Position numbers and translations under genes: made by a program. A stretch of 62,789 bases of DNA from Oscillospiraceae bacterium. Lineage in GTDB: Bacteria > Bacillota > Clostridia > Oscillospirales > Ruminococcaceae. The DNA lies in assembly GCA_017396665.1 (NCBI GenBank), contig JAFQLH010000002.1, positions 1 through 62,789 on the forward strand, given 5' to 3'. Below, piece after piece: positions 11,210-28,717 of this stretch (the first letter of the stretch is position 1; every line of letters starts with the position of its first letter). Below the pieces are notes generated by a model, which saw nothing but the letters and a program-made list of their open reading frames with translations, was not told where the DNA came from and did no database searches.

Positions 11210-11289
11210 AAGTGTATGTTTTTCTTTGTAAATTAAAGGCTTTGGACAAGTCTTCAGAGCCAATCCATACTGTGTTAGGAGAGATATTT

Positions 11290-12267
11290 ATGAGTAACGT
11301 AAGACCAGAAACAATGGAAAGAATAACTACACCTGAGCTTGCAAACGCTTTTATCGAAGAGCAGGTTAAGGAAGTAAGAGCACAGGTCGGTGACAAGAAG
11401 GTTCTTCTTGCTCTGTCGGGCGGTGTTGACTCATCTGTTGTTGCTGCACTTCTTATCAAGGCAATCGGAAAGCAGCTTGTATGTGTTCACGTTAACCACG
11501 GACTCATGAGAAAGGGCGAAAGCGAACAGGTTATCGAGGTTTTCAAAAACCAGCTTGATGCAAATCTCATCTACATCGACGCTACAGACAGGTTCTTAGA
11601 CCTTCTTGCAGGCGTTGCTGAGCCTGAAAAGAAGAGAAAGATTATCGGCGGCGAATTCATCAAGGTGTTTGATGAAGAGGCTTCAAAGCTTGAAGGAATC
11701 TCCTTCCTCGCTCAGGGAACTATCTATCCTGACATTCTCGAAAGTGACGGAGTAAAGGCTCACCACAACGTTGGCGGACTTCCTGAGGATATGCAGTTTG
11801 AGCTTGTTGAGCCTGTAAAGCTTCTCTACAAGGATGAGGTAAGAGTTGTCGGTAAGGCGCTCGGACTTCCTGCTTCAATGGTTGACCGTCAGCCATTCCC
11901 GGGCCCGGGTCTTGGTGTAAGATGTCTTGGCGCTATCACAAGAGACAGACTTAATGCACTCCGTGAGGCTGATGCAATTTTAAGAGAAGAATTCGATAAC
12001 GCAGGTCTTAACAAGACTGTATGGCAGTACTTCATCGCTGTTCCTGATATGAAGAGCGTAGGTGTTAAGGATTCAAAGAGATATGAGGGCTGGCCTGCAA
12101 TTATCAGAGCTGTCAACACAACAGACGCTATGAGTGCTACAATTGAAGAGATTCCATACGCACTCCTGCACAAGATTACTGCAAGAATCACAGCAGAGGT
12201 AGACGGCATCAACCGTGTCCTCTACGACCTCACACCAAAGCCAATCGGCACTATTGAATGGGAATAA
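11290..12267 (+). CDS. guaA: GMP synthase ATP-pyrophosphatase subunit (no glutaminase domain)
   Basis: 325 residues: PP-loop SGGVDSS at residues 43-49, then the C-terminal dimerization domain ending in KPIGTIEWE. This is the second half of usual GuaA; the class I glutamine amidotransferase domain (~190 residues) is absent. Activates XMP with ATP and aminates it to GMP; the ammonia would come from a separate glutaminase or free ammonium. ATG 11290 follows TTAGGAGAG by seven bases; the longer frame to 11212 is unsupported. The last codons lie inside the left attachment repeat of an integrated element. Confidence 0.95.
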   Translation: MSNVRPETMERITTPELANAFIEEQVKEVRAQVGDKKVLLALSGGVDSSVVAALLIKAIGKQLVCVHVNHGLMRKGESEQVIEVFKNQLDANLIYIDATDRFLDLLAGVAEPEKKRKIIGGEFIKVFDEEASKLEGISFLAQGTIYPDILESDGVKAHHNVGGLPEDMQFELVEPVKLLYKDEVRVVGKALGLPASMVDRQPFPGPGLGVRCLGAITRDRLNALREADAILREEFDNAGLNKTVWQYFIAVPDMKSVGVKDSKRYEGWPAIIRAVNTTDAMSATIEEIPYALLHKITARITAEVDGINRVLYDLTPKPIGTIEWE

Positions 12268-12315
12268 ACTACACACATAAATATAGAGCTATCTGATTAA
12301 AATCGGATAGCTCTT
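12256..12315 (+). repeat. Left attachment repeat (attL) at guaA 3' end
   Basis: 60-bp segment covering the last four guaA codons, the stop and the guaA terminator. It is repeated in direct orientation at 19952-20011 with 55 of 60 identical positions and no gaps. Such duplication of a gene end marks site-specific integration; the guaA 3' end is a known integration target. Confidence 0.85.
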
Positions 12316-12317
12316 TT
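12284..12317 (+). terminator. guaA intrinsic terminator
   Basis: AGAGCTATCTGAT and ATCGGATAGCTCT form a 13-bp stem (one T-G wobble) with a TAAA loop, followed by TTTTTG. A near-identical hairpin recurs in the right repeat. Confidence 0.9.
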
Positions 12318-12319
12318 TG

Positions 12320-13060
12320 TTATGTCATCGTTACTGAGATAAAAATAATCGGGATTTCATTTTGTGTATTTACTATACCATTTGTAATTAATTGCCTTCC
12401 GCCTTTTGAAAGCGTTGTTGCCTTAGTGTTGATATATTTTATTGTTTTAAATCTAAATTCTTTTTTTAAGAGAAAGTAGTAAGGGTCATTAAATCTTGTA
12501 ATTTTTTCTTCTCCTCGTTCAACGATGTGTATGGCACATTGTTTATTTTTTGCTATGGCACAAGCACGCCAAATTATTAGTTCGCAGTAAGAAGATTCGA
12601 TATTTTCAGAGATTTGTTCGGGAGTCAATCCATACTCTATCATTTTGGGGACAGCATCATTAATTTTAGCTTTATCCCAGTACGAACCAACATTCCAGCA
12701 TATAACAATATCAGGAAATATTTTGGGTAAAATATCCTGCTCAAACTTTTTATCTGTAATATCACATTCAACAAAACATACAGTTTGAGATGATATATCA
12801 TCAATATTTTCAGTAATTGAATAACCAGATGATTTAATTAAATTCTTAGCTTTATCAATACAATACATATTTTGGTCTATCGCTACAACACTGTGCCCAG
12901 CTTCAAGTAAAGCAAGGGTGCTTTGGCCAGTACCACAGCCAATTTCTAATACAGTATTGTATTTTTTGATTTGTGCCGCAAGATGCTTATATCTGTTGTT
13001 ATCATAGAAATATTTTGCACTGTTATTCCACTCAAAAGCATACTTTTCTTTTTCTGTCAT
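12320..13060 (-). CDS. Class I SAM-dependent methyltransferase
   Basis: 246 residues. Motif I LEIGCGTGQSTLALLEAG is near residue 36, followed by VVAIDQN (motif II) and DIVICWNVGSYWDKAK (motif IV-like). No DNA-methyltransferase DPPY/NPPF motif is seen, so small-molecule or protein substrates are more likely than DNA. The gene lies just inside the left repeat, with its stop five bases from it, and runs toward guaA. It is 13 bp downstream of the XRE regulator and probably co-transcribed with it. Confidence 0.8.
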   Translation of the reverse strand: MTEKEKYAFEWNNSAKYFYDNNRYKHLAAQIKKYNTVLEIGCGTGQSTLALLEAGHSVVAIDQNMYCIDKAKNLIKSSGYSITENIDDISSQTVCFVECDITDKKFEQDILPKIFPDIVICWNVGSYWDKAKINDAVPKMIEYGLTPEQISENIESSYCELIIWRACAIAKNKQCAIHIVERGEEKITRFNDPYYFLLKKEFRFKTIKYINTKATTLSKGGRQLITNGIVNTQNEIPIIFISVTMT

Positions 13061-13073
13061 TTGCTTTACTCCT

Positions 13074-13654
13074 TTATTTGTTTATATTATCTTCATTCAA
13101 TTCCTCAACTATCATATCACTTAACTCCTGCGACACACCAATCTTATGCCACTCACCGGAAGTATCAAGTTCAGGATAGCGATAACGCCAGCGGTCATAT
13201 TCCTCTTTTGTAATTTCCTCATTTCGGAATTTATCAGCTTCTTTCTGCCACGCTGTAAAGAGCTTTACCATTTTAGGATATTCCATACCGCTATTCTTAT
13301 CAAGTCGGATACATACTTCATCATTGAGCGTGTCAATACGGAAACCATATAAATCCTCAAGAGCAAAGAGCGTGTGCATAAGCCCGATATAGCTCTCTAT
13401 GTTCGGAACATCAAGCGCTGCAGGAGAAACGTCGAGAGTTTTCGCTATTTCCTTTGTCAGCTCTGCCTTTGGTGTTCTTGTTCCTGACTCATACTGTGCA
13501 AGTCTGATGTCTGCTGTTTTCTCTGGAAAGCCAACAGCCATACCAAGCCATTTCTGTGTCATTCCACGAAGATTGCGGATAAATCAAGCAGAGCATCTAT
13601 ATTTGAAGTGTCGAACTTATCTTTAGGAATAAGAGTGTATGGAAACCCGTTCAT
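13074..13654 (-). pseudogene. XRE-family helix-turn-helix regulator, frameshifted
   Basis: The frame from 13562 reads a DNA-binding HTH (MTQKWLGMAVGFPEKTADIR, then AQYESGTRTPKAEL) and a conserved tail ending near 13074. The first helix is missing from that frame. A better start, ATG 13654 behind a GGGGGTG site, gives MNGFPYTLIPKDKF and continues to LLDLS, then shifts frame: RNLRG, which belongs before MTQKW, is encoded in the other frame at about 13565-13580. The loss of a non-multiple-of-three segment near 13580 breaks the gene, unless the short ORF is translated by coupling (ATGA overlap at 13559-13562). It would be the element's regulator. Confidence 0.75.
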
Positions 13655-13703
13655 ATTCTTCACCCCCTTTTAAAGTATAGCATATTAAACATTATATTTC
13701 AAT

Positions 13704-15023
13704 ATGAAAGGAGCAATCTCTATCGAAAAAAGAACAATCAGCGGTCGTATCAGCAAGAAGCACAGCCTGCCTCACAATAACCGTGAGTTTCTGTGTGAAA
13801 ATGTTGACCCGACCAGAACAAAAGACAACATCACCATTATCAAATACGACATCGGGCAGGTCTATCACGAGCTGTTTGATGAAGTTCTTGCTGAGTATAA
13901 TTCCAAGCAGAAACGTAATGACAGGATTATCAAGGACTATCACGAGCATATCCGCCACAGCCGACAAGAACAAGAGTATCACGAAGTCATTTTCCAAATC
14001 GGCAATCAGGACGATACGCCTGTCGGCTCTGATATGGGCAAGGTCGCAACCGAGCTTCTTCGGGAGTTTGCCGAGAACTTTCAAACACGAAATCCGCATC
14101 TGCGTGTGTTCAATGCGGTCATTCATCTTGACGAAGCAACACCGCATATTCACATCGACTTCGTTCCCTTTGCAACGGAGCAGAAACGTGGACTTTCCAC
14201 AAGAGTTTCGCTGACAAAGGCTCTGGAACAGCAAGGCTTCAAAGGCGAAGGCAAGTTCAATACCGCCTGCAAACTGTGGATTGACAACGAAAAGGAAGTT
14301 CTTGCACAGCTTATGCGTTCCCGAAATATCGAGTGGGAACAGCTCGGCACGCACAATGAGCATTTGTCTGTGCTGGATTTCAAAAAGCAACAGCGTAGCC
14401 GTGAGGTTGCTGTACTGGAAAATAAAATTGAGTGTACGGACAAGCAGTTACAGCACCGTCAGGAGTTGCTAGATGAGGTCGAGAACACAATCGACAGGCT
14501 CGACAGCGAGTATCAGGAAAAGAAAGAGGCTGTCGGTCAGCTTGATGAGGATATTGCCGTAAAGGAAGACACTCTTGCAGAGAATACGGCTCTCCTTGCA
14601 ACAGTAGCGAAGAAAACAAGCAAAATCAAGGATATTGATGATATTCAGGTTAAGAAAACTATGTTCGGCGGTAATATTTCCGTTGCCCCAAATGATTTCA
14701 AGAAGCTTACCGACCTAGCGAAAAAGCAGATTGCGACGGAGAGTAAGGAAAAGGAGCTGAACGGGAAAATTGCCTCACTAAAAACCGAGAAGAAAGAGCT
14801 TGCCGATAAAAACGCACAGCTTGAAAAGGAAAACACGGCTCTGAAGCAGGAGAACAGATCGTTGAAATCTGTCAGGGAGAAGCTGACTATTGCTTCACTG
14901 CAAAAGGAAATCAGCGAGTGGAAGAATAAGTATCAGAAGGTGCTTGATTTCATTGAAAAGCTTAATCTCACGAAGCAGTTGCAGGAGTTTTTGAAGCCGA
15001 GAAAGCATACACTGAATAGATAA
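13704..15023 (+). CDS. mobV: Mob_Pre (MobV-type) relaxase
   Basis: 439 residues. The relaxase core has H141-L-D-E-A-T-P-H-I-H150, the HxDE...PHxH metal-binding motif of plasmid mobilization proteins, preceded by conserved NITI and HEHIRHS segments. From about residue 230 the rest is long coiled coil. It nicks oriT and leads conjugative transfer using machinery supplied in trans. The only ATG is 13704 with no site before it, while AAAGGAG lies just inside the ORF, ten bases before an ATC codon at 13722. The original start may have been lost or an alternative codon is used. Confidence 0.85.
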   Translation: MKGAISIEKRTISGRISKKHSLPHNNREFLCENVDPTRTKDNITIIKYDIGQVYHELFDEVLAEYNSKQKRNDRIIKDYHEHIRHSRQEQEYHEVIFQIGNQDDTPVGSDMGKVATELLREFAENFQTRNPHLRVFNAVIHLDEATPHIHIDFVPFATEQKRGLSTRVSLTKALEQQGFKGEGKFNTACKLWIDNEKEVLAQLMRSRNIEWEQLGTHNEHLSVLDFKKQQRSREVAVLENKIECTDKQLQHRQELLDEVENTIDRLDSEYQEKKEAVGQLDEDIAVKEDTLAENTALLATVAKKTSKIKDIDDIQVKKTMFGGNISVAPNDFKKLTDLAKKQIATESKEKELNGKIASLKTEKKELADKNAQLEKENTALKQENRSLKSVREKLTIASLQKEISEWKNKYQKVLDFIEKLNLTKQLQEFLKPRKHTLNR

Positions 15024-15032
15024 ATCAAAAGC

Positions 15033-15062
15033 GAGCTGTTCTTTACAACAGCTCACTTTTTA
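15033..15062 (+). terminator. Terminator after mob gene
   Basis: GAGCTGTT and AACAGCTC stem with a short loop and a TTTTT tail, directly after the relaxase stop. Confidence 0.75.
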
Positions 15063-15063
15063 A

Positions 15064-15782
15064 TTAAAAATATACATCTTCGTTTGGGTAAGATTTACGC
15101 ATTATTTTTCTCAAGCTTTCAAAATCAAAATTTTTTAAACGTTTATTTGTGCAATGATGATTCTTTAAAAACTCAATATATCCGTTAAATCTTTAAAGTT
15201 TTCATTATTAGAATTGAACCCATTTTCTAATGCCTTCTTAAGTATGGTGTTTACTGATTTTACATAATGTTTTTTAATTTTTCGTTCAGGGAATTTATCA
15301 AGTTCTTCGTAAATTTCTTTTAAAGGTCCGTTCATAGGATTTGGCGATTCAATATGTAAAATCATTAGCGAACGAACCAGTAGTATTAAACGACGAAGTT
15401 TAACATTATCAACATCAACGTGCTGAGTACCACTATTATAACAAATTTCACCTTTCGAGGTACCGTTATTTATTTCAGAAAAAATGCTTCTTTTATTGGG
15501 CATACTCATACCCCAACTATTAATCATTTTTCTTGCAACAGTTTCTGAAAAAACAGGATAAAATTCAGTTTCGTTTTGTACATCAACAACCCTAAACATC
15601 ACAAATGCACCTTCAATATCGCGATTACCGGTAGCATAGCTACTAATATGTTTTCCAGGCAATAACTCTTCAAATGTTTCTACAGTAACATCATAGTGAT
15701 TTATGATACTAATACGATTTGATTCGTTTTTACAGAAATTTCTCTTAAAACAATTGATTTCTATATCAGTAGCTTTTTTCAT
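15064..15782 (-). pseudogene. Unknown protein, frameshifted near its C-terminus
   Basis: The start is ATG 15782 behind GGAGGA (the in-frame ATG at 15794 overlaps that site). The first frame ends at 15165 after NFKDLTDILSF. The other frame is open immediately after that point and reads GYIEFLKNHHC...RKSYPNEDVYF to a stop at 15064, with codon use like the upstream part. One missing base around 15180-15190 (in a TTTAA run) explains it. The corrected protein would be about 239 residues. No family is recognised; it has no signal peptide or membrane segment. It is divergent from the HNH gene, sharing a 170-bp promoter region. Confidence 0.65.
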
Positions 15783-15885
15783 AGTTTCCTCCATGTTTAA
15801 TGCATAGTTTATTATTTATTATATCATAAATCTAGAATCTTATCAATAATCATGTTGCAAATACAATCGCTTTTTGCAGTTATAA

Positions 15886-15914
15886 TTGACTTTGCGGCGA
15901 TTTAGATGTATAAT
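15886..15914 (+). promoter_or_regulatory. Promoter of HNH-DGQHR / OLD cargo
   Basis: TTGACT, 17-bp spacer ending AGATG, TATAAT, 50 bp upstream of the HNH gene start. Stronger match to consensus than most promoters in the window. Confidence 0.75.
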
Positions 15915-15964
15915 ATAGGAAAGATTTAACTAATGTTTTTAATATCACATTTGGAGGAATAATT

Positions 15965-17578
15965 ATGGCTTCAAAATTTTTAGGTGGATTAACTAAAGAT
16001 GAATATACTGCATTAACCCAGAAACTTCATTCTATACAAGATGGTAAATGCTATATTTGTCGTAAAGATATTGATTTAGACTTGCATAACACTAATATCG
16101 ACCACGTTATTCCGCTTGCCAACAAGGGTAAAGATTCTGAGGACAATTTTGCACTTACACACGAAAGCTGTAACAAGTCCAAACAAGATGCTGATTTAAA
16201 AGTAGCTCGTGCACTTGCTCAGCTTACAGAAATAAAGCGTAGAATAGCTGATGGAGAACTTGGAACTGACACATCTGAAACAGCTTCATTAAAACATGTT
16301 TTCGAGCACATTGGCGGTGGAAAATACAGCCTACACTATAAAACTGAAGGCAATACTTTTTCATATACACTGTCCGAAATGAACGATGAAAAAATTTACA
16401 AGGTTCCAATTTTCACAGATGGTTTATCGGGCGAAAAAACTGTATTTATCGAACTTCCCGTTGAATATCTTTACCACGATGAGTTAATTAATCCTCGTGG
16501 GATTAACAGCAGTATCAGTTTACTTGTAAAGGAATTTTATCAGAAAAATCCACAACTACATTTATCACTTGCAAGAGTGGATGCTGATAAAATTAAGATA
16601 TTTGATGGACAACACAAAGCGGTAGCGCAATTGCTTTTAGGACAGAGAAAACTACTTGTGCGTTTGTTCATTAGCCCTGATATTGACAGACTTATCACAA
16701 CAAACACTAACGCAGGTAGTAAGCTTCGCCAGATTGCTTTCGATAAATCTATTATGCGTCAGCTTCACGATACACTCTATGCAGATAGAATCAGAAAGTA
16801 CCAGCAAGACCATCATCTTGAAGAAAACGACTATACATTCTCTGAACAACAACTTGTGGAATACTTTAAAGGTGAAGCCAATATTAAAAAATACATTAAC
16901 GATAGCGCAAAACATCAAATTACTCATTCTATGGATAACAAGCTCCGAACATTTATTGATTTTGAAGGTCGTGCCAAAGAACTGCCTATTTCATACAATG
17001 CATTTGAAAAAACCGTTTTGGCTCGCTTCTTGGATAGCAAACGAATTCTTAAAACGCCGATAAATTACAGAATGGACGAAGGTAAAAATCCTCGTGAAAT
17101 TGAACAGAAGCAGATTATACGACTGCTTAACATTATCGCGGAGGAAATATACATTGATAAATTTAACCCAGAAATCGGCGTGTATCGAATCGAAAACAAA
17201 ATCATTGACGGGAAAGACGCCGATTTCTCAGATGAACATTTAGCGGCATACCGTATTTCTAAAGAAGAAATTATGTATAACTGGATGTTGTGGTTAAAGA
17301 AAGTAATCGAGAACTATTTTAGTAATACAGGAAAAATGTATGAGCAAGGCAGCGAGTTTCAAATAGAGTTTGATGAACAGCTTTGGGCAAACATCACTAA
17401 TTTCATAAGAAACCTTATCAAGTTACCATTGTGGAAAAATCGTGATATGGCATGCACTGTATTCTCAGGTAAAAATAATTATGATTACTGGAAAATGGTC
17501 TTCGAAACAGGAAGCAATCCCGATGGTGTAAAGGTGCTGGCACAGCCATTAAACTATATCGAGATGATTAAAGCATAA
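15965..17578 (+). CDS. HNH endonuclease-DGQHR fusion protein (putative phage defence)
   Basis: 537 residues. N-terminal HNH domain: Cys29-x2-Cys32, D46-H47 (NIDHVIPLANKG), H66 and C69-N70 (HESCNKSK), which gives the metal ligands and catalytic His. After a linker, a ParB/DndB-type DGQHR domain has the motif KIFDGQHKAV (Asp214-His217) followed by LFISPDIDRLITTNTNAGS. DGQHR proteins include DndB of phosphorothioation systems; HNH plus DGQHR in this order is unlike the better-known DUF262-DUF1524 order. The remaining ~270 residues have no motif I know. ATG 15965 has GGAGGAA upstream. The downstream OLD gene suggests a two-gene nuclease system. Confidence 0.75.
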   Translation: MASKFLGGLTKDEYTALTQKLHSIQDGKCYICRKDIDLDLHNTNIDHVIPLANKGKDSEDNFALTHESCNKSKQDADLKVARALAQLTEIKRRIADGELGTDTSETASLKHVFEHIGGGKYSLHYKTEGNTFSYTLSEMNDEKIYKVPIFTDGLSGEKTVFIELPVEYLYHDELINPRGINSSISLLVKEFYQKNPQLHLSLARVDADKIKIFDGQHKAVAQLLLGQRKLLVRLFISPDIDRLITTNTNAGSKLRQIAFDKSIMRQLHDTLYADRIRKYQQDHHLEENDYTFSEQQLVEYFKGEANIKKYINDSAKHQITHSMDNKLRTFIDFEGRAKELPISYNAFEKTVLARFLDSKRILKTPINYRMDEGKNPREIEQKQIIRLLNIIAEEIYIDKFNPEIGVYRIENKIIDGKDADFSDEHLAAYRISKEEIMYNWMLWLKKVIENYFSNTGKMYEQGSEFQIEFDEQLWANITNFIRNLIKLPLWKNRDMACTVFSGKNNYDYWKMVFETGSNPDGVKVLAQPLNYIEMIKA

Positions 17579-17831
17579 ATTTCTATAATTCAGCAGGCAT
17601 TATAACGTTGTAATAAAAATACAAATAAGAACCATAAGAAATCAGTAGGTAGAATTTGAAACCAACAAAATTTTTAATGTAAAACCATATAAATGATTCT
17701 TATAAGAAATTTGCGTACAGTAAAACATCAAAGAGTCTTAAAACCTTAGAAAAAAATATTTCACATATGAAGTGAAGAAAGCAAATTTATTTTGCTATGG
17801 CATGTAATTAACATTCGAAAGGAATATTATT

Positions 17832-19457
17832 ATGAATATCGAACTAATCACTATTGAAAAATTTCGTTCAATAAAAAAAATATCGTTCGCCATAAATGAT
17901 ATTACAGCTATAGTAGGGGAAAATAATTCTGGCAAAACTTCTGTCCTTAGAGCTATAAATGCTGTCTTAAATTATTCATTTGAAGAAGAATTTTTCTTAA
18001 ATCGTCGACATCAATATGCACAAAAAAGCAATACCCATATCACAATTACATTTAATAATACACCTCCTGATGAACGCCTTCTTCCATATATCCAAGATAG
18101 AAAGATAACTGTACACTTTTCTTACATATACAGTGAAAATAAAAGAAAACTTTTCATTGTAAAAAGCGGCACTAAAATACCAATAGATGAATCTATCTTA
18201 TCAATAATATCTGAGCATATTATGTATGTATATATTCCTGCAGGCAGAAGTAATAAAGACGTTTTATGGAAATCAAACTCTGTTTTTAAACAGTTGGTTT
18301 TGAATTATGCTGCACAATATACTGAAAAAAAAGACTTGATTTCTGGACAAGTAAGAAATGCTGCAAAAAAAATTCACGACTCAGTTTTTACAAGAATAGA
18401 ACAGCAACTCGAAAAACTGTATATGCAGAATAAACATGAAACGTTCAATTTAAGTTTTCCAGATAATTTAGACTACACTTTTCTTATAAATAACTTAGTC
18501 GTATCTCTCAAAGAATATGACAAAAACTATCCATTACAAGAATGTGGTAGCGGAATAAAAAGTCTTGCTGTTATAGCAATGCATAGAGCGAATGCTTTGT
18601 TGCGAAATGGTACGACTGTACTTGGTATAGAAGAACCTGAAACAAACTTACATCCACAAGCACAAAAACGATTTATGTCATCATTGCAAGAAACTATAAA
18701 CGGCAGTGATTCACAAGCACTATTTACAACGCATTCCACTGTTTTGGTTGATGCCTTGCCTCACCAAGATATTCTTTTGATTAGAAGGATACCAGATACA
18801 TCTCGTGGGTTCATATCTACTGCTGCTAAAATTCATCATGACTTTTGGGAAAGATATGATATTGAAGAGTTTAAGCATTACCAATATTTTAATTATCGAA
18901 ATAGTGATTTCTTTTTCTCAAAATTTGTTGTATTAGGTGAAAGCAAAAACGATTGTCAAGTGTTTCAGATGCTAGTAAAGTCACATCTTGGCAGTAAAAT
19001 GTCAGATATAAGTTTTCTAGATGCTGGCGGAGTAGAAAATATAAAATATCCATATTTTCTCCTAAAAGAACTAAAGATTCCATTTATATTGATTGTTGAC
19101 AAAGATTATTTCTTTCCTTATAAATGTGATAATGAACTCAGTAAAAGCCGTAATTCTCAAACAGGTCTCCCTTGTTATGCCGATTCTTTAAAAGACGACC
19201 CCGTAATAAATGATATATTCCATTCAGAAACACAACAAAGAAAACTCATAGATGCTTGTGGAAAAGGGTATCGTAAGTTTTTTGAATTCTTAAAGCCCTA
19301 TGGCATTCTTTCGATGAATTATTGCTTAGAAATGGATTTATCCTGTTCAAGTGCAGCGCGTGAAGAATATTACAATTCACTAAATATTTTGCAAGGAAAT
19401 AGAAATCAAAAATACTTACTTGAAAATAATTACAAATCAATCAAAAAAAATAGATAA
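17832..19457 (+). CDS. OLD-family ATPase/TOPRIM nuclease (C-terminus in another frame)
   Basis: 541 residues as read. N-terminal ABC-type ATPase: Walker A GENNSGKTS (29-36), signature region near CGSGIKSLAVIAMHRAN, Walker B LGIEEPETNLHPQAQ (Glu267-268) and FTTHSTVLVDALP. C-terminal TOPRIM: E370 in LGESKND, then FLDAGG and D423-K-D425 in LIVDKDYF. This architecture matches OLD and GajA nucleases used in phage defence. Just after A8 (19443-19450) the frame stops, while the +1 frame stays open to 19557, giving a natural-looking tail IDKILKIVDTIPHKSLPES and beyond. ATG 17832 has AAAGGAA upstream. It follows the HNH gene by 253 bp of AT-rich sequence with no ORF. Confidence 0.85.
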   Translation: MNIELITIEKFRSIKKISFAINDITAIVGENNSGKTSVLRAINAVLNYSFEEEFFLNRRHQYAQKSNTHITITFNNTPPDERLLPYIQDRKITVHFSYIYSENKRKLFIVKSGTKIPIDESILSIISEHIMYVYIPAGRSNKDVLWKSNSVFKQLVLNYAAQYTEKKDLISGQVRNAAKKIHDSVFTRIEQQLEKLYMQNKHETFNLSFPDNLDYTFLINNLVVSLKEYDKNYPLQECGSGIKSLAVIAMHRANALLRNGTTVLGIEEPETNLHPQAQKRFMSSLQETINGSDSQALFTTHSTVLVDALPHQDILLIRRIPDTSRGFISTAAKIHHDFWERYDIEEFKHYQYFNYRNSDFFFSKFVVLGESKNDCQVFQMLVKSHLGSKMSDISFLDAGGVENIKYPYFLLKELKIPFILIVDKDYFFPYKCDNELSKSRNSQTGLPCYADSLKDDPVINDIFHSETQQRKLIDACGKGYRKFFEFLKPYGILSMNYCLEMDLSCSSAAREEYYNSLNILQGNRNQKYLLENNYKSIKKNR

Positions 19458-19757
19458 AATTTTGAAAATTGTGGATACAATCCCTCATAAAAGTCTTCCT
19501 GAAAGCTATTTGAAAATTCAAAATGCAATAATTGAACAAGCAAATTCATATATTTAATGCAGTTCATAAAATATGATTACCACAAATTATATTGCTAATA
19601 ATCATTTCTGTAAAATCTTAGAGTTGAAAATACTAGCGAAATATTTCCTAAAAACAGCCACGAATTTTTCAAGAAGTGCATATCCAATTATTGCAACAAA
19701 ACAAGCGGTTATAACAAAAAATATTTTGCACAATCCTTCAAAAATGAAATAATTCTA

Positions 19758-19786
19758 TTGAAATTATGCAAAATGTGTGATATACT
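19758..19786 (+). promoter_or_regulatory. Orphan promoter near right end of element
   Basis: TTGAAA, 17-bp spacer ending TGTGTGA, TATACT. A ribosome-like AAAGGAAG follows at about 19811-19818, but no ORF of any length follows it. The 19558-20018 gap holds this, the TGGCAAC pair and the right repeat; I see no gene in it. Confidence 0.55.
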
Positions 19787-19832
19787 AACAGAGTTGAAGA
19801 ACTTTAATCGAAAGGAAGTTCCCCGAAATCTG

Positions 19833-19850
19833 TGGCAACAATATGGCAAC
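19833..19850 (+). repeat. Paired TGGCAAC repeats (candidate recombinase arm sites)
   Basis: Two TGGCAAC copies 11 bp apart, start to start, about 100 bp inside the right attachment repeat. Helically phased short repeats near an att site are typical of tyrosine-integrase arm-binding sites. Assignment is inference. Confidence 0.35.
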
Positions 19851-19951
19851 ATAAAATCTGATAGTCCATAATCTATGGATAATTCAAGTAATACAAATAC
19901 TATAAGCTAAATCTCCTATACAGATTTGTTTAAGGCAGGTTTGTCGGGAGC

Positions 19952-20011
19952 GAGTGGGAATAAACTACACACAAAAACACAGAGCTATCCGATTAAAATC
20001 GGATAGCTCTT
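19952..20011 (+). repeat. Right attachment repeat (attR)
   Basis: Direct copy of 12256-12315 (55/60 identical), including the ATGGGAATAAACTACACACA-like core (here with GTGGG at the start) and the guaA-type terminator, whose stem is perfect here. It lies eight bases before the stop of the convergent GNAT gene. Confidence 0.85.
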
Positions 20012-20018
20012 CTTTATG

Positions 20019-21954: not shown

Positions 21955-21986
21955 TAAAATAAAACCTTTTGAACGGAGGCTTGTTT

Positions 21987-24140
21987 ATGATAAAGAAGCT
22001 TATAGCAGCGTTGCTGTCGCTTTCTGTGGCACTATCGCTTTGTGCGTGTGGCGACAAGGACAGCAGCAGTAGTAAGGCAGACTCATCATCTGCTCCTGAT
22101 ACTACAACAACTACTGCACCTGCTACCACAACAACAACTACAACAGCCGCAGAGCCTGAGCCGGAGCCTGTGAATATTTTCGACCTTGAAGGCTTTGATA
22201 TGGGAGAGGCAAAGACTCTTGGCGGTAACAAAGACCTTAATCTTACTACACTGATGGATTGCGAAGCTTTATCGTACGGTGACATAGAGGCAGAATCCTT
22301 TGAAATAGTTAAAATCACCGATAAAAACATACTGCTCAGACTCTCATACTTCGCTGAAGAAGACAATATGATGGAAAAGCTTATTTCCATTGACAAGGAA
22401 ACATATGAGGTCAAGTCTGAATTGGATTATGCAATCGGCGGCAGCGGTACTCAATTTCTTGATGACGGTATGGTGTTAATAAAGTCAGGTGAAAACCATC
22501 ACGAATATACTGTTTATGACTACGACATGAATGTTCTCAGTTCTTTTGAGTCAGAAAGCTACAGACCGTATTATTTCACCGATACAAACACAGCCTACTA
22601 TTTATCCTATAACTTATCGGCTGCATACAGATATGATGTGAAAACCCAAACATCAAAGATGGTTTCAGACAGCAGTGAGTATTATGTTTCAGACCTGTCC
22701 GGAGTTGAGAGGATAAACGGAGAAGATATTCTCCGGCTGACAACTGTCGAAGAAGACCTCAAGAATCACTCGGGCGTGCTTAATACTGCAACGGGTGAGC
22801 TTACATACTTCGATGCAGACGGATATTACAGTTTAACAAACGGTCTGTTCTCATACGATAAATACGCAGAGGACTACTCCACAGAGTACAGTCTGTATTC
22901 ATACAGCAAGGACAACGCCGTAAAAGTGTCCTTCGATGATAATGAAAGGTATTATCTTGAGCTTTCCGCTTGTGACAACAAGGTTATATACTACACATAT
23001 TCAGATTACATTTTCAGCTTTGAGGTACTTGACATTGAAACAGGAAAGCTTATAGGCACCTGCTCTTTTGACAGCAAGGAGATTATGCCTGACGAGGACG
23101 AGGTTAGAAAGAAGCTCGGCATTGATGCAGACTACGATGTTTCATACTACACCGAGCCGAGTGCTTTATACGAATCATGCTTTTTGGATGATGACACTCT
23201 CATTCTTGCCTTCAGCAATATGGCGGGCTACAAGATGTATGTGACATGGGACCTCTCTATGCAGGATGGCTATGAAAGTACGATTCAGATATCCGATTGC
23301 AAAGACGTTGAATTTGACTATGACGAGTCTTCAATCAGCCAGACTTACACCATTCTCCAGCCGTCAGAGGTGTCAGATGAGCTTAAGCCTCTGAGGGAAA
23401 AGGCTGACAAGCTTGAGGAGAAGTACGGAATAGAAATTCTCTTTGAAAATGAAGCTGTCGGATATATGGGCACCTATTATCTTAAAGATATCGCTTCGAG
23501 TATAAGCTACTTTACTCCTTACGAAGTTATTTCCAGTGCGCTCGATGACCTCGATACAGAGCTGGCAAGATATCCCGAAGGCTTCTTTGACCAGGTTTCA
23601 AACGACGGCTGTAAGGGATACAGATTCATTTTCACAGGAGATATAATCAGCCTTGACAAGCAAGACCCGACCGGCTTCAAGTATGCCATTGACGGCAGCA
23701 TAAATGTTGTAATACAAACACGCCCTCAGAACCCCACCGTTCTCCACCATGAGCTGAGCCATTCTATCGACCACTACGTTGAAGAAAAGCTGGAGGGTAC
23801 ACTGGACTTTTCAGAAGGCTGGGATAAGCTCAATCCACCGGACGATATATGGTATACAGGAGAATTAACACCCGAGGAAGTGCATGCGGAATGTGTTACG
23901 AATAACATTGACCCATCGGGCGCTTACTACTTTTCAGAATACGGCCACACAAATGCTACCGAAGACAGAGCAGAAATCTTCAGTGCAGTTATGAGGCCTG
24001 AAAACTATGTTCAGTTTGAGCTTGACCGCTCACCTTTCATTGTGGCAAAGCTCAACTACTACGCTGAATGTATAAGACTTGCATTCGACGGCTCAGAAAA
24101 CTGGGACGAAATACCTTGGGAAAAGTATATGGATAACTAA
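21987..24140 (+). CDS. Lipoprotein zinc metallopeptidase, paralogue 1
   Basis: 717 residues. N-terminal lipoprotein signal with lipobox LCAC (Cys22 region), then a Ser-rich segment, a poly-Thr linker and the EPEPEP spacer. Residues ~60-450 contain repeated short beta-type units (for example VYDYDMNVLSSF, YRYDVKTQT), suggesting a propeller-like domain. The C-terminal part carries H588-E-L-S-H592 and a downstream ATEDRAEIF (Glu659-Glu663), the gluzincin pattern, so a surface-anchored zinc protease is inferred. ATG 21987 follows GGAGG; the upstream TTG frame is rejected. Closest match is paralogue 2 (near-identical promoter, signal peptide and C-terminus). Confidence 0.75.
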   Translation: MIKKLIAALLSLSVALSLCACGDKDSSSSKADSSSAPDTTTTTAPATTTTTTTAAEPEPEPVNIFDLEGFDMGEAKTLGGNKDLNLTTLMDCEALSYGDIEAESFEIVKITDKNILLRLSYFAEEDNMMEKLISIDKETYEVKSELDYAIGGSGTQFLDDGMVLIKSGENHHEYTVYDYDMNVLSSFESESYRPYYFTDTNTAYYLSYNLSAAYRYDVKTQTSKMVSDSSEYYVSDLSGVERINGEDILRLTTVEEDLKNHSGVLNTATGELTYFDADGYYSLTNGLFSYDKYAEDYSTEYSLYSYSKDNAVKVSFDDNERYYLELSACDNKVIYYTYSDYIFSFEVLDIETGKLIGTCSFDSKEIMPDEDEVRKKLGIDADYDVSYYTEPSALYESCFLDDDTLILAFSNMAGYKMYVTWDLSMQDGYESTIQISDCKDVEFDYDESSISQTYTILQPSEVSDELKPLREKADKLEEKYGIEILFENEAVGYMGTYYLKDIASSISYFTPYEVISSALDDLDTELARYPEGFFDQVSNDGCKGYRFIFTGDIISLDKQDPTGFKYAIDGSINVVIQTRPQNPTVLHHELSHSIDHYVEEKLEGTLDFSEGWDKLNPPDDIWYTGELTPEEVHAECVTNNIDPSGAYYFSEYGHTNATEDRAEIFSAVMRPENYVQFELDRSPFIVAKLNYYAECIRLAFDGSENWDEIPWEKYMDN

Positions 24141-24148
24141 ATCCTTTA

Positions 24149-24184
24149 AACTCCCCTTCAGATTACGAAGGGGAGTTTTTTTGC
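24149..24184 (+). terminator. Terminator between metallopeptidases 1 and 2
   Basis: AACTCCCCTTC / GAAGGGGAGTT perfect 11-bp stem followed by seven T. Confidence 0.9.
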
Positions 24185-24232
24185 TTGCAAAAAATATTAT
24201 TATGTGATATAATATTCTCAATCGTTTAAGTT
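24185..24232 (+). promoter_or_regulatory. Promoter of metallopeptidase 2
   Basis: TTGCAA, 17-bp spacer ending ATGTGA, TATAAT, then TTCTCAATCGTTTAAGTT. Nearly the same as the region before paralogue 1, showing that promoter and gene were duplicated together. Confidence 0.65.
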
Positions 24233-24264
24233 AAAACAAAAATCTTTTAGACGGAGGCTTGTTT

Positions 24265-26418
24265 ATGATAAAGAAGCTTATAGCAACATTGCTGTCGCTT
24301 TCTGTGGCACTCTCACTTTGTGCGTGCGGCGACAAGGACAGCAGCAGTAGTAAGGCAGACTCATCATCTGTTCCTGAAACTACAACAACTACTGCGCCAA
24401 CTACCACAACTACAACTACTACAACCGCAGAGCCTGAGCCGGAGCCTGTGAACCGTTTTGACTTTGAAGGCTTTGAAATGGAAGATGCAAAGACTCTTGG
24501 CGGTAATAAAGACCTTTCTCTTACTGCAATGATAGATTTAGATGGTCTGACATACAGCGGCGACGAGATTACATATCTCAGGATAGAAAATATCACAGAC
24601 GACAATATACTGCTCAGATTGAATTATAAATCGGCTGACGGAGATATCGAAACCAGGCTCGTTTGCATAGACAAGGAATCCTACGAGGTTATATCTGAGC
24701 TTGAATGTGATTTTGACAACACCTCTAGCGAGTATCTGAGTGACGGAATTATCATTTCAGATTCCGAAGATAACTACCACAAGTATACTGTCTACGACTC
24801 TGAGCTAAACGCTGTAAAATCCTTTGAATCGACAGGCTACAACAAGTATCTGTTTACAGACATAAACACAGGATACTATATGTCATACACAGATTCGCAG
24901 TTGTACAGATATGACGTTTTATCAGGCAAGTCCGAAAAGATTTCCGACAGCAGTGAGTACTACGTTACAGGTCTCAACAAAGTCGACAAGATTGGCGGCA
25001 AGGATTTTGCAATCATCAGCACTGTTGAAGAAGACCACAATAACAGAACCGGAGTACTTGACACTACTACGGGCGAGATTTCCTATCTTGACGGTAACGG
25101 ATTTCTGAATATTAATAGCGGTATCCTCACCCTCGAAAAATACGATGAGAATTACTCGACAGAATACAGCATGTATGCAACAAGCACCAAGGATGCAGTA
25201 AAAATTAATTTTGATTCAGAGGATTATTACGTTTCACAGAATACAGACAGCGACAGAATTCTCTCCTACACATACAAGGACTATGTTTTCTACTTTGAGC
25301 TTTTCGATGTGTCGGAGGGCGCTGTAATCGGATGCTGTACCCTCGACGCCAAGGAGCTCTTCCCTGACGAAGAAGAAGCAAGAAAGAAGCTCGGCGTAGA
25401 CGCAGATTACGACCTGACCACTGACCTTGAGCCGTATCTTTCAACTTCTCCCAGACACCTTGACGATGACACCCTCATTATGTGCTTTGAAAATACGCTT
25501 GCGTACCAAATCTTCGTAGAGTGGGATATCTCCAAGCAAAGCGGATTTGACAGCAGGCTCGTTGCAACAGAGTGCGACACCACAGATGAGTTTTACTCCC
25601 CGTCTTCAATTGAGCAGATTTACACTATCCTCCAGCCTTCCGAGGTTTCTGAAGGATACAAGCCTCTGAGAGAAAAGGCTGACAAGCTTGAGGAAAAGTA
25701 CGGAATAGAAATTCTCATTGAAAACGAAGCAGTGGGATACATGGGTGAGTATATTCTCGAAAACTATGCTACAAACATATTTGTGTATGACCATTATGAG
25801 ACACTCAGCGGTGCACTCGATTGCCTTGACAGAGAGCTTGCAAGATATCCTGAAGGCTTCTTGGACCAGGTGTCAAATGACGGCTGCAGTAACTACAGAT
25901 TCCTTCTCACAGGGGAAATAGTAGGCATAAACAAGGCTAACGCAGGCGGCTTCAAGTATGCAATTGATGACAATATCAATATTGTAATATCTGTTGCATT
26001 CAGCGATATTTCAGGCACCTTGCACCACGAGCTGAGCCACTCTATCGACTACTACGTTGAGGAAAAGCTTAAGGGAACAGTAGACTTCTCTGCAGAATGG
26101 CAAAAGCTCAATCCTGCCGACGACCCGTGGTACGGAGAGGTAGCCACACAGGAAGAAATATTCGCTGAATGTATTGCACTTGACACCGACCCATCGGGTG
26201 CTTACTACTACTCCGACTACGGTCACACAAACGCTACCGAGGACAGAGCAACCATTTTCGCGGCAGTTATGACTCCGCCTAACTACATGCAGCCGGAGCT
26301 TGAGCGTGCACCTTTCATAGTAGCAAAGCTCAATTTCTACGCTGAATGCATAAACCTTGCATTCGACGGCTCGGAAAACTGGGGCGATATGCCTTGGGAA
26401 AAGTATATGAATAGCTAA
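24265..26418 (+). CDS. Lipoprotein zinc metallopeptidase, paralogue 2
   Basis: 717 residues, the same length and layout as paralogue 1: lipobox LCAC, Ser-rich stretch, poly-Thr linker, EPEPEP, beta-repeat region, and H588-E-L-S-H592 with ATEDRATIF downstream. The first ~60 codons are almost identical to paralogue 1 at DNA level, whereas the middle domain has diverged strongly; this suggests recent duplication or gene conversion of the 5' end with selection for a changed central domain. The final Glu in EDRAE is Thr here (EDRAT), leaving the Glu of TED as the candidate third ligand. ATG 24265 behind GGAGG. Confidence 0.75.
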   Translation: MIKKLIATLLSLSVALSLCACGDKDSSSSKADSSSVPETTTTTAPTTTTTTTTTAEPEPEPVNRFDFEGFEMEDAKTLGGNKDLSLTAMIDLDGLTYSGDEITYLRIENITDDNILLRLNYKSADGDIETRLVCIDKESYEVISELECDFDNTSSEYLSDGIIISDSEDNYHKYTVYDSELNAVKSFESTGYNKYLFTDINTGYYMSYTDSQLYRYDVLSGKSEKISDSSEYYVTGLNKVDKIGGKDFAIISTVEEDHNNRTGVLDTTTGEISYLDGNGFLNINSGILTLEKYDENYSTEYSMYATSTKDAVKINFDSEDYYVSQNTDSDRILSYTYKDYVFYFELFDVSEGAVIGCCTLDAKELFPDEEEARKKLGVDADYDLTTDLEPYLSTSPRHLDDDTLIMCFENTLAYQIFVEWDISKQSGFDSRLVATECDTTDEFYSPSSIEQIYTILQPSEVSEGYKPLREKADKLEEKYGIEILIENEAVGYMGEYILENYATNIFVYDHYETLSGALDCLDRELARYPEGFLDQVSNDGCSNYRFLLTGEIVGINKANAGGFKYAIDDNINIVISVAFSDISGTLHHELSHSIDYYVEEKLKGTVDFSAEWQKLNPADDPWYGEVATQEEIFAECIALDTDPSGAYYYSDYGHTNATEDRATIFAAVMTPPNYMQPELERAPFIVAKLNFYAECINLAFDGSENWGDMPWEKYMNS

Positions 26419-26426
26419 ACATTTCA

Positions 26427-26460
26427 AAAGGCATCTGCGTATATACGAAGATGCCTTTTT
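26427..26460 (+). terminator. Terminator between metallopeptidases 2 and 3
   Basis: AAGGCATCT / AGATGCCTT stem enclosing a CGTATATACG palindrome, followed by TTTTT. Confidence 0.85.
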
Positions 26461-26469
26461 GCTGCGGTA

Positions 26470-26513
26470 TTGAAAAATGAGAGCTTGTGTGATATAATGT
26501 TCTCAGTTGTGTA
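26470..26513 (+). promoter_or_regulatory. Promoter of metallopeptidase 3
   Basis: TTGAAA, 17-bp spacer ending TGTGTGA, TATAAT, followed by TTCTCAGTTGTGTAAC, a diverged form of the motif at paralogues 1 and 2. Confidence 0.65.
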
Positions 26514-26536
26514 ACAACTTTTGAGGGGGAATACAT

Positions 26537-28717
26537 ATGAAGAAACGCATTCTGACATGGCTGATTATTTCGGCAATGGCACTCTCGCTTTGTTCCTGCG
26601 AGGAAAAGGATAGCAGCAGCAAGACAGACTCATCATCTGTTCCTGATACTACTACACCAACTACCACAACTACTACCACCACAACAACTGCAGAGCCTGA
26701 ACCTGAGCCGCAGAAGGAGCTTTTGGAGCTTGACGGCTACGGTATGCTTGATAAGTCAGTTGCCATAGACAAGTCGGGCAAGGCTATGTGTGTTGCAAAG
26801 GGCACTGTAAATGCAAAATTCAGAGATAAGTATGTCGATGTCTTTACGATAGAAAACATCGTAGACGGCTCGCTTATCGTTACCTGCACACTCTCCGATG
26901 ACAAAATTGTACTCGGAGAAAGCTTCGGCGACGGCGAAGGAGACAGCAGCTACATTGACAACAAGAGATATATGTTCAGGGTGAATCTTGAAACGGGTGA
27001 AATACTTAATGAGATTGTGCTCGAAAACTATGATGAGTTTGTTACCTTCCTCGACGGCGGCTTCACCATTGAAACGTCAGACGGCGAAAGCACAGTTACG
27101 GATGTTTATGACTATGACTTCAACAAGATATATACATCGGACAGAAAGGGCGGATATGGTACCTTCAAGATAAACGGCAGCGTTGATACAGCCTATTATC
27201 TCGAAGACCACGTGGTCTACTCTGTTGACCTTGAAACCGAAGAGCTGAAGGCAGTCACTGAGTATTCCGACATTTATGTCAACCACATGAGTGACATTAT
27301 GACAATCGACGGAAAGGACTTTGTGTCGCTTACTGCCCTTGAAACAGACGGCAAGGAATACGACTGTATTGTCGATGCCAAGACAGGCGAAGTGTTCAGA
27401 TTATATACAGATATGTGCTATATGGATACAACAGAGAATGTCCTTCGTCTGAATGTCTATGATGACAGCTACAACACAGACTATATCCTTATCAGCGGTA
27501 AGAAAGACAGCCTTGACAGGGTTGAGCTTCCTGAGTCGATAACATATTCACTCTGCTATATGCTCGATGACGGCAGACTTTTTTACAACTTCAAAACAGA
27601 GGACGGATACTTTGTCGAGGTTTACGACCTTGAAACAAACAAGCTTGTCGGAAGCCTTACTGTTTCAACCGACCTCTTTGAGCCTGACGAGGACAAGATG
27701 AAAGAGGTGTTCGGCGAGGACTACGACATAGATGCGTTCTATGACCCTACAGCCTACTTTATGTACGGAGAGCCTCTGTTTACAGGCGACAACACAGTGC
27801 TTCTGAGATTTTCAAACAATCTGCGTGAGGAGTTCTTTGTTCTGTGGGAAATCGGACTTGAGGATGGCTACACACAGCATATCAAGGTCACCGACGAGGA
27901 GATACTTCCGCAGTATGTAAGAGAAGAAGATGTCCAGGAAAGATTCCAGTTCATACAGCCGGGCGAGCTCACAGGAGAATATCTTACTCTGAAAGAAAAG
28001 GCTGACGAGATTGAAAAGAAGTACGGCATTGAGCTTGAAATCGCAGACGAAGCGGCAGGAGTTATCGTTGACTTTGCTATGGTGCCGTCTGAAAGCTACG
28101 AATACACAAGCGATGCTCTTGATGTTCTCGACAGAGAGCTTGGCAGATACCCTGCAGGCTTCCTTACACAGATAAAGAACTACGATTCTGACAAGATACG
28201 CATCTACCTTACCGCAGACGTTGTCGGATTTACAGACGAGTTTGAATACGGCGGTGTATGTACAACATACAATAACGAAATCGTGATTGCGCTTGAGGTA
28301 GGTGACCTACCCTACTTAGAGTCAAGTATTCACCACGAGCTGAGCCACGCTATCGACGTTTATGTTGAAGAGAAGCTCAACAACCCTGATTTTAGCGACG
28401 GCTGGGACGCACTCAACCCGCAGGATGATATCTGGTATACAGGCAGTCCTGAACTTCACGAGCTTTATGTCGAAAGCTTCTACTCAGATATAGATACTGC
28501 CGGTGCATACTATGTTGACGAATACGGTCACACAAACGCTACCGAGGACAGAGCGAGAATCTTTGAAACGGTAATGAGCGACGGTTGTTACACTGTAAGA
28601 TTCGACGAAGCTCCTTTCCTTATGGCAAAGCTCAACTTCTATGCAAAGAGCATCAGAGAAGCATTTGACGGCTCAGAAAACTGGGGCGAGGTGCCTTGGG
28701 AAAAGTACATGAACTAA
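26537..28717 (+). CDS. Lipoprotein zinc metallopeptidase, paralogue 3
   Basis: 726 residues, more diverged than the other two. Signal MKKRILTWLIISAMALSLCS with lipobox LCSC, Ser-rich segment, poly-Thr linker and EPEPQ. The beta-repeat domain is present; H600-E-L-S-H604 and ATEDRARIF give the metallopeptidase signature. The end GSENWGEVPWEKYMN is shared with both neighbours. ATG 26537 has GAGGGGG upstream. The alternative to peptidase activity would be a non-catalytic binding role, but all three keep HExxH. Confidence 0.75.
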   Translation: MKKRILTWLIISAMALSLCSCEEKDSSSKTDSSSVPDTTTPTTTTTTTTTTAEPEPEPQKELLELDGYGMLDKSVAIDKSGKAMCVAKGTVNAKFRDKYVDVFTIENIVDGSLIVTCTLSDDKIVLGESFGDGEGDSSYIDNKRYMFRVNLETGEILNEIVLENYDEFVTFLDGGFTIETSDGESTVTDVYDYDFNKIYTSDRKGGYGTFKINGSVDTAYYLEDHVVYSVDLETEELKAVTEYSDIYVNHMSDIMTIDGKDFVSLTALETDGKEYDCIVDAKTGEVFRLYTDMCYMDTTENVLRLNVYDDSYNTDYILISGKKDSLDRVELPESITYSLCYMLDDGRLFYNFKTEDGYFVEVYDLETNKLVGSLTVSTDLFEPDEDKMKEVFGEDYDIDAFYDPTAYFMYGEPLFTGDNTVLLRFSNNLREEFFVLWEIGLEDGYTQHIKVTDEEILPQYVREEDVQERFQFIQPGELTGEYLTLKEKADEIEKKYGIELEIADEAAGVIVDFAMVPSESYEYTSDALDVLDRELGRYPAGFLTQIKNYDSDKIRIYLTADVVGFTDEFEYGGVCTTYNNEIVIALEVGDLPYLESSIHHELSHAIDVYVEEKLNNPDFSDGWDALNPQDDIWYTGSPELHELYVESFYSDIDTAGAYYVDEYGHTNATEDRARIFETVMSDGCYTVRFDEAPFLMAKLNFYAKSIREAFDGSENWGEVPWEKYMN

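Follow-up and report, generated by a model that had tools for sequence, protein, structure and literature searches.

Type IV restriction systems of the GmrSD, BrxU and TgvAB group combine a ParB/Srx-type domain bearing a DGQ motif with an HNH-type nuclease, sometimes in a single gene; the sections consulted of the reports on them place these systems inside or beside restriction-modification (R-M), bacteriophage exclusion (BREX) and other defense clusters (PMC11411939, PMC12373910, PMC12839542, PMC4619093). The GmrSD-related tgvAB, according to the consulted part of one of these, lies within a type I R-M operon and restricts phages whose DNA is modified (PMC11411939). A 2025 survey records bacterial proteins of ParB-CTPase fold fused to the Pfam HNH family PF01844, with no function stated in the part consulted (PMC12704722). 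The locus considered here lies in a 62,789-nucleotide stretch of an Oscillospiraceae bacterium (assembly GCA_017396665.1, contig JAFQLH010000002.1, positions 1 to 62,789), called the window below. It carries, on the plus strand, a gene for a protein with an N-terminal HNH motif and a more distal DGQHK motif (HNH-DGQHK, 15965–17578), followed by a gene for an OLD-type ATPase/TOPRIM nuclease (17832–19457). HNH-DGQHK represents an unnamed single-gene family that is found in many phyla by record labels and recurs beside R-M genes. The evidence suggests that the two genes are separate passengers on one island, not the single two-gene defense system that the original prediction, made from the letters of the window, had seen in them.

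At the level of the individual genes that prediction stands. Both open reading frames (ORFs) are real, of 537 and 541 aa and on the same strand; the residues it named are in place (C29, C32, H47, C69 and DGQHK, at 214–218, in the first protein; Walker A, Walker B, E370, D423 and D425 in the second); and the domain calls hold, with Pfam HNH at 33.1 bits (PF01844, cut-off 21.4) for the one, and AAA_15 at 110.9 bits and OLD-like_TOPRIM at 41.8 bits (PF20469, cut-off 23.2) for the other. The putative nuclease HNH-DGQHK consists of an HNH domain at about residues 1–80 (motif part 29–75), a DGQHK region at about 155–275 and a C-terminal part that has no family match of weight in the libraries searched.

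A scan of 84,980 species genomes yielded 61 candidate stretches, 35 of which carry a gene related to that of the HNH protein; as the scan patterns were drawn from the HNH part, distant relatives are under-sampled. The alignment has 32 rows, the window protein and those of 31 of the 35 loci, four (L031, L037, L039, L044) being excluded for interrupted or short ORFs. Such ORFs, in 4 of 35 loci, hint at decay or sequence errors. All 32 rows share C29, C32, D46, H47, N61, C69, N70 and F-DGQHK; the architecture is constant, and the part outside the HNH, some 450 residues, is conserved. In an hmmscan to E 1 every one of the 32 members matched Pfam HNH, and elsewhere the hits were weak (best E 0.007, in one member). 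The window protein alone, run against NCBIfam, PADLOC and PHROGs, drew models of the HNH part and two marginal PHROGs, one of them a ParB-like family over residues 156–225 (E 0.057). Its description as a ‘DGQHR protein’ is apt for the motif and fails for the families: no NCBIfam DGQHR model was matched, and membership of DndB was rejected, as PF14072 gave no match at cut-off either in the window’s own genome or in the hmmscan of the 32 members. Titles and abstract openings on DGQHR, HNH, ParB-like proteins and defense do not name the family (supplements, preprints and most subscription papers lie outside that scope), nor do the sections consulted of PMC12704722, PMC10853773, PMC12839542, PMC13092281 and PMC12373910.

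By record labels the loci fall in nine phyla; most are metagenome-assembled genomes, in which binning errors are possible, and named strains of Endozoicomonas and Marinomonas are among them. The distribution is patchy, at 55–85% identity, and phyla are mixed on the tree, which suggests horizontal transfer. In Ruminococcus the family rides integrase/relaxase elements: a tyrosine integrase is present in L014, L015 and L040, and a Mob_Pre relaxase in L014 and L040. One Ruminococcus genome holds two copies, 73% and 85% identical to that of the window (L015 and L040, whose coordinates match G1041). There is little support for the gene having come from a phage or plasmid: plasmid and phage collections gave no tblastn match at E 1e-5, a first viral scan gave one match, over the HNH part, and a second gave two relatives of 42–45% identity. 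Both of these, on viral contigs, retain the HNH and DGQHK motifs; one (L104) lies about 0.6 kb ahead of a Terminase_6C gene, the other (L105, 1025–15353) has a type IIG-like enzyme of 1670 aa upstream of it and a DruE-like helicase of 1815 aa downstream. In a search of the phylum with the C-terminal alignment (299 genomes), the sole match was the window’s own gene.

R-M genes adjoin HNH-DGQHK in 10 of the 35 loci. Type I neighbors, forming one HsdM cluster, occur in seven (L017, L028, L030, L036, L037, L039 and L046); the N6_Mtase call there stands on Pfam for L017, L030 and L039 and on agreeing coordinates for L028, L036, L037 and L046, and HsdR is present in L017 and L046. L045 has type III neighbors (N6_N4_Mtase, REase_III), and L032 an Eco57I/DrmMI-like neighbor, of which L033 has a relative. 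The nearest ORF at these loci is mostly within about 30 bp; L030 and L039 have gaps of 76–239 bp. Uniform placement would put N6_Mtase at 0.87 of 32 loci; it was observed at 7 at least (P 1.4e-5). On the tree the R-M label (9 labeled rows of 34, L037 and L039 not included and L105 added) needs 7 changes, of which at least 6 are forced. Clustering of the label is not significant, 122 of 500 shuffles being as low, as expected if the link with R-M arose repeatedly.

One way to understand these facts is to take HNH-DGQHK as an agent of defense in its own right. It is best read as a single-gene, nucleotide-gated DNA nuclease, akin to type IV (GmrSD-like) restriction or to a back-up of R-M; most likely the HNH acts alone, complementing R-M where the two are linked. 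The fuller statement, that a stand-alone HNH nuclease gated by the DGQHK region acts against phages or plasmids and complements linked R-M, while OLD is an independent passenger, is in our judgment probably correct; both proteins of the window are plausibly defense nucleases. The DGQHK region, presumed to resemble the ParB/Srx-type domains of DndB and GmrS, would sense the state of DNA or of a nucleotide and would license nicking or cutting by the N-terminal HNH. Where it sits in an R-M operon, the protein would supplement the host system, either by cutting modified DNA that resists R-M or by backing up R-M that has been blocked. In favor of the proposal, the family does without OLD neighbors, adjoins R-M genes, travels on integrase/relaxase vehicles and keeps its motifs invariant. 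The surroundings of the motif are regular and similar to the motif order of GmrS, though not identical: NPR precedes DGQHK in 34 of 34 rows (the two viral-contig relatives included), and L..[TA]N follows it in 31 and M..[TA]N in 3. The marginal ParB-like PHROG match and the precedent of tgvAB point the same way. A bolder form, offered tentatively, would make the family an undescribed class of single-gene restriction factors, their HNH licensed by a nucleotide-binding DGQHK region, repeatedly captured by mobile elements and by unrelated R-M systems (types I, III and IIG-like) as a general second line against phages able to evade or disable R-M. If the proposal is true, a nuclease family of many phyla, covered by the libraries at its HNH only, would be a general partner or back-up of R-M.

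Several observations weigh against the proposal. In profile comparison by hhalign, the DGQHK part reached a probability of 5–9% against DndB, 1–2.5% against DUF262 and less than 1% against ParB; the OLD control likewise stayed below 1%. When the whole protein is used, the strongest alignment to the DUF262 family (15%) brings together the HNH parts rather than the motif. Probabilities of this size do not establish the ParB/Srx fold of the DGQHK region statistically, and both fold and enzymology are inferred. The enrichment test for N6_Mtase ignores the clustering of defense genes. Finally, no R-M gene was recognized in 25 of the 35 loci, the window’s own clade included; neighbors in these were mostly clustered by BLAST rather than scanned for families, and several of the contigs are of 3–10 kb.

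The same distribution can be read otherwise. A selfish or homing-type gene, spread by its own nuclease and settling in integration hotspots and R-M operons with no defensive role for the host, would suit the patchy spread over many phyla at the identities given above, and the frequent lack of recognized partner genes. Such a gene does not readily account for the conservation of some 450 residues outside the HNH, for the recurrent placement beside R-M genes or for a tyrosine integrase as vehicle in three Ruminococcus loci, and we think it unlikely. A different role again would be that of an accessory or guard of R-M, as PrrC is of a type I system: the protein would fire when R-M is inhibited and would not be an independent restriction enzyme. 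Linkage with three types of R-M, of several origins on the tree, speaks for such a role; the 25 of 35 loci in which an R-M gene is unrecognized speak against it, and it is difficult to see how one guard could serve unrelated R-M complexes. This role seems distinctly improbable.

The joint system seen by the original prediction would have the OLD ATPase sense infection and both nucleases act. The two genes do lie on the same strand, with a gap of 253 bp free of listed promoter-like or terminator-like sites, and dyads of HNH and OLD ATPase are reported in BREX contexts in the consulted part of one paper (PMC12839542). The two-gene system was nonetheless rejected because the linkage is not conserved. 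The prediction itself had proposed a check of adjacency: when the HNH-family loci were searched for OLD genes, adjacency was 0 of 35 beyond one 14-bit match (L021, E 0.003). This match and the planted control were all that the OLD profile found in 3131 ORFs, taken from the 35 HNH loci (with flanks of at most 8 kb, many contigs being shorter), the two viral loci and four wider stretches; the HNH profile, as a control, recovered its gene in 41 of 41 sources. Among 32 genomes that have the family (L023 and L026 lie outside the search, and L040 is the same genome as L015), the OLD TOPRIM family PF20469 was matched in 5 and exceeded the Pfam cut-off in 4. At the level of the order (394 genomes), near-full-length matches to the HNH protein occur in 5 genomes and OLD in 2, the two together in the window genome only; G145 combines the HNH gene with an OLD match of 45 residues. 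At the level of the family (297 genomes, a set overlapping the first), 9 genomes have an HNH match, near full length in 3 of them, and 23 have an OLD match, whatever its length; the window genome alone is on both lists. The genome of the closest OLD relative found (L049, 32% identical) has no match to the HNH family. The window OLD, moreover, has a disrupted frame, and it retains its TOPRIM, which also counts against the joint system. The prediction had named want of co-occurrence as its own refutation, and that is the picture that these loci and genomes give; a single system is very unlikely indeed, though in this one genome the two may act jointly. Adjacent defense genes on an island need not form a system.

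The OLD gene, class 1-like with its frame lost near the 3' end, has Walker A (GENNSGKT) at residues 29–36, Walker B (LGIEEPETN) at 264–272 and the TOPRIM residues E370, D423 and D425. Its PADLOC scores are 138 bits for Old, 117.1 for the best AriA and 116.5 for the best GajA; among solved structures the closest match is the OLD-family endonuclease 6P74 (E 5e-23). The original prediction ran the locus to 19557; the ORF as assembled stops at 19457, and 19555–19557 is the stop of another frame. The C-terminus of L049 matches 19432–19518 in that frame (tblastn E 2e-6, 201-base subject), and the gene end is therefore truncated or mis-assembled. The protein has an ABC ATPase and a TOPRIM with the E...DxD residues, and neither helicase nor reverse transcriptase is recognized beside it among the neighboring ORFs and their Pfam matches; it thus fits a solitary class 1 OLD, its C-terminal end in another frame, by the class definition in the consulted part of PMC10568477. 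It is probably an independent class 1-type passenger, possibly a damaged one. E. coli YbjD, also class 1, gives anti-phage phenotypes upon induction, according to the consulted part of the report (PMC13261556). A viral scan for OLD confirmed nothing; tblastn matched 99 plasmid and 4 phage records, all below 60% identity, those listed being at 19–37%.

Both genes are cargo of a mobile element, as had been predicted from the window: direct repeats at guaA, a relaxase and the junction in G860 bear this out. The island takes up 7.7 kb at the 3' end of guaA and spans 12256–20014 between 63-nt direct repeats, 90% identical and containing a hairpin of the same kind. guaA (11212–12267, plus strand; GMP synthase, ATP-pyrophosphatase and C-terminal part, GMP_synt_C 117.2 bits) is the integration target; the left repeat (12256–12318, plus) starts within its last codons, and the right repeat is at 19952–20014 (plus), with the junction as in G860. 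The window guaA matches synthase and C-terminal families only, the glutaminase domain being unmatched, unlike the 515-aa guaA of L013; the guaA ORFs of G858 and G859 are as short.

Further genes of the island encode an S-adenosylmethionine-dependent methyltransferase (12320–13060, minus; Methyltransf_25 34.7 bits, cut-off 27), a helix-turn-helix regulator-like protein (13074–13562, minus; HTH_3 20.6 bits, below the cut-off of 23) that shares 61% identity across 117 aa with an ORF close to guaA in G858 (L118), a MobV/Mob_Pre relaxase (13704–15023, plus; Mob_Pre 54.5 bits, cut-off 25.5; MobV 42.3 bits, below the cut-off of 100), and, divergent from the HNH gene, a 209-aa uncharacterized protein (15165–15794, minus) matchless in Pfam, PADLOC, NCBIfam and PHROGs. 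A strong promoter had been proposed for the pair: the plus-strand site at 15886–15914 exists (11 of 12), and two minus-strand sites there score equally; promoter-like sites number 30, against 22.3 ± 5.2 in shuffles. A relaxase-bearing island without a recognized integrase thus sits at the guaA 3' end. It has the flanking repeats and relaxase of an integrative mobilizable element at guaA; an integrase of its own was not recognized among the scanned ORFs by ORF list and Pfam. Megablast of the island against plasmids gave no match.

The right junction recurs in G860, a member of the same genus, next to the same GNAT and epimerase genes (identities of 93% and 98%); guaA there ends near the contig edge and is followed by a similar hairpin, and in G858 GAGTGGGAATAA stands in two copies after guaA. 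L014, a Ruminococcus metagenome-assembled genome, looks like a fuller version of the island: the end of guaA (49% identical to that of the window) is followed by a tyrosine integrase, then a Mob_Pre relaxase with 37% identity to the window’s, then the HNH-DGQHK gene. In L013 the HNH-DGQHK gene starts 28 bp after guaA; in L012 it lies 137 bp from the 3' end of mnmE, which it faces. A repeat search found no flanking repeat at the guaA end in L013 or L014. Outside the island, 21969–28717 holds three tandem paralogous lipoprotein-like ORFs of 719–726 aa with, by eye, a zincin-like HELSHSID or HELSHAID stretch toward the C-terminus.

The window OLD shares with class 1 OLD proteins (P2 Old, T. scotoductus OLD) its best PADLOC model, Old, and the relative 6P74; it differs in its disrupted C-terminal frame and in sharing an island with another nuclease. 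GajA of Gabija (GajA and GajB) is likewise an OLD nuclease, and the score for it is lower than for Old; Gabija was rejected, the UvrD-like helicase GajB not being found beside the window OLD. Septu (PtuA ATPase and PtuB HNH) likewise sets an ATPase beside an HNH protein, and weak PtuB matches cover the HNH (E 2e-4). It was rejected, the PtuA model NF041760 giving 42.6 bits against a cut-off of 500, and it differs in that the window OLD has a TOPRIM, the window HNH protein is about twice as long and the pairing is not conserved.

DndB, with its DGQHR domain, shares with HNH-DGQHK a DGQH motif after a beta-like stretch and scored highest among the profile comparisons at that motif; to our knowledge, DndB carries no HNH. 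The ParB-CTPase-HNH fusions, as described in the consulted part of the survey (PMC12704722), share PF01844 with HNH-DGQHK, which has no ParB Pfam match. GmrSD, BrxU and TgvAB, type IV systems of DUF262 and DUF1524/HNH, join a DGQ-motif region to an HNH-type nuclease, as HNH-DGQHK does. DUF262 (GmrSD_N, PF03235) is not among the families matched by the 32 members up to E 1, and no DUF1524 (PF07510) or C-terminal HNH is listed for HNH-DGQHK, its HNH being at residues 29–75. GmrSD differs, further, in having DGQQR in place of DGQHK; in HNH-DGQHK the HNH is N-terminal and a long C-terminal part follows. The order of motifs is similar, not identical: QR...DGQQR...FxxxN in GmrS; NPR, DGQHK and L..[TA]N here. 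If the proposal holds, the ParB/Srx-HNH principle of the GmrSD-like systems would extend to another domain order and another motif.

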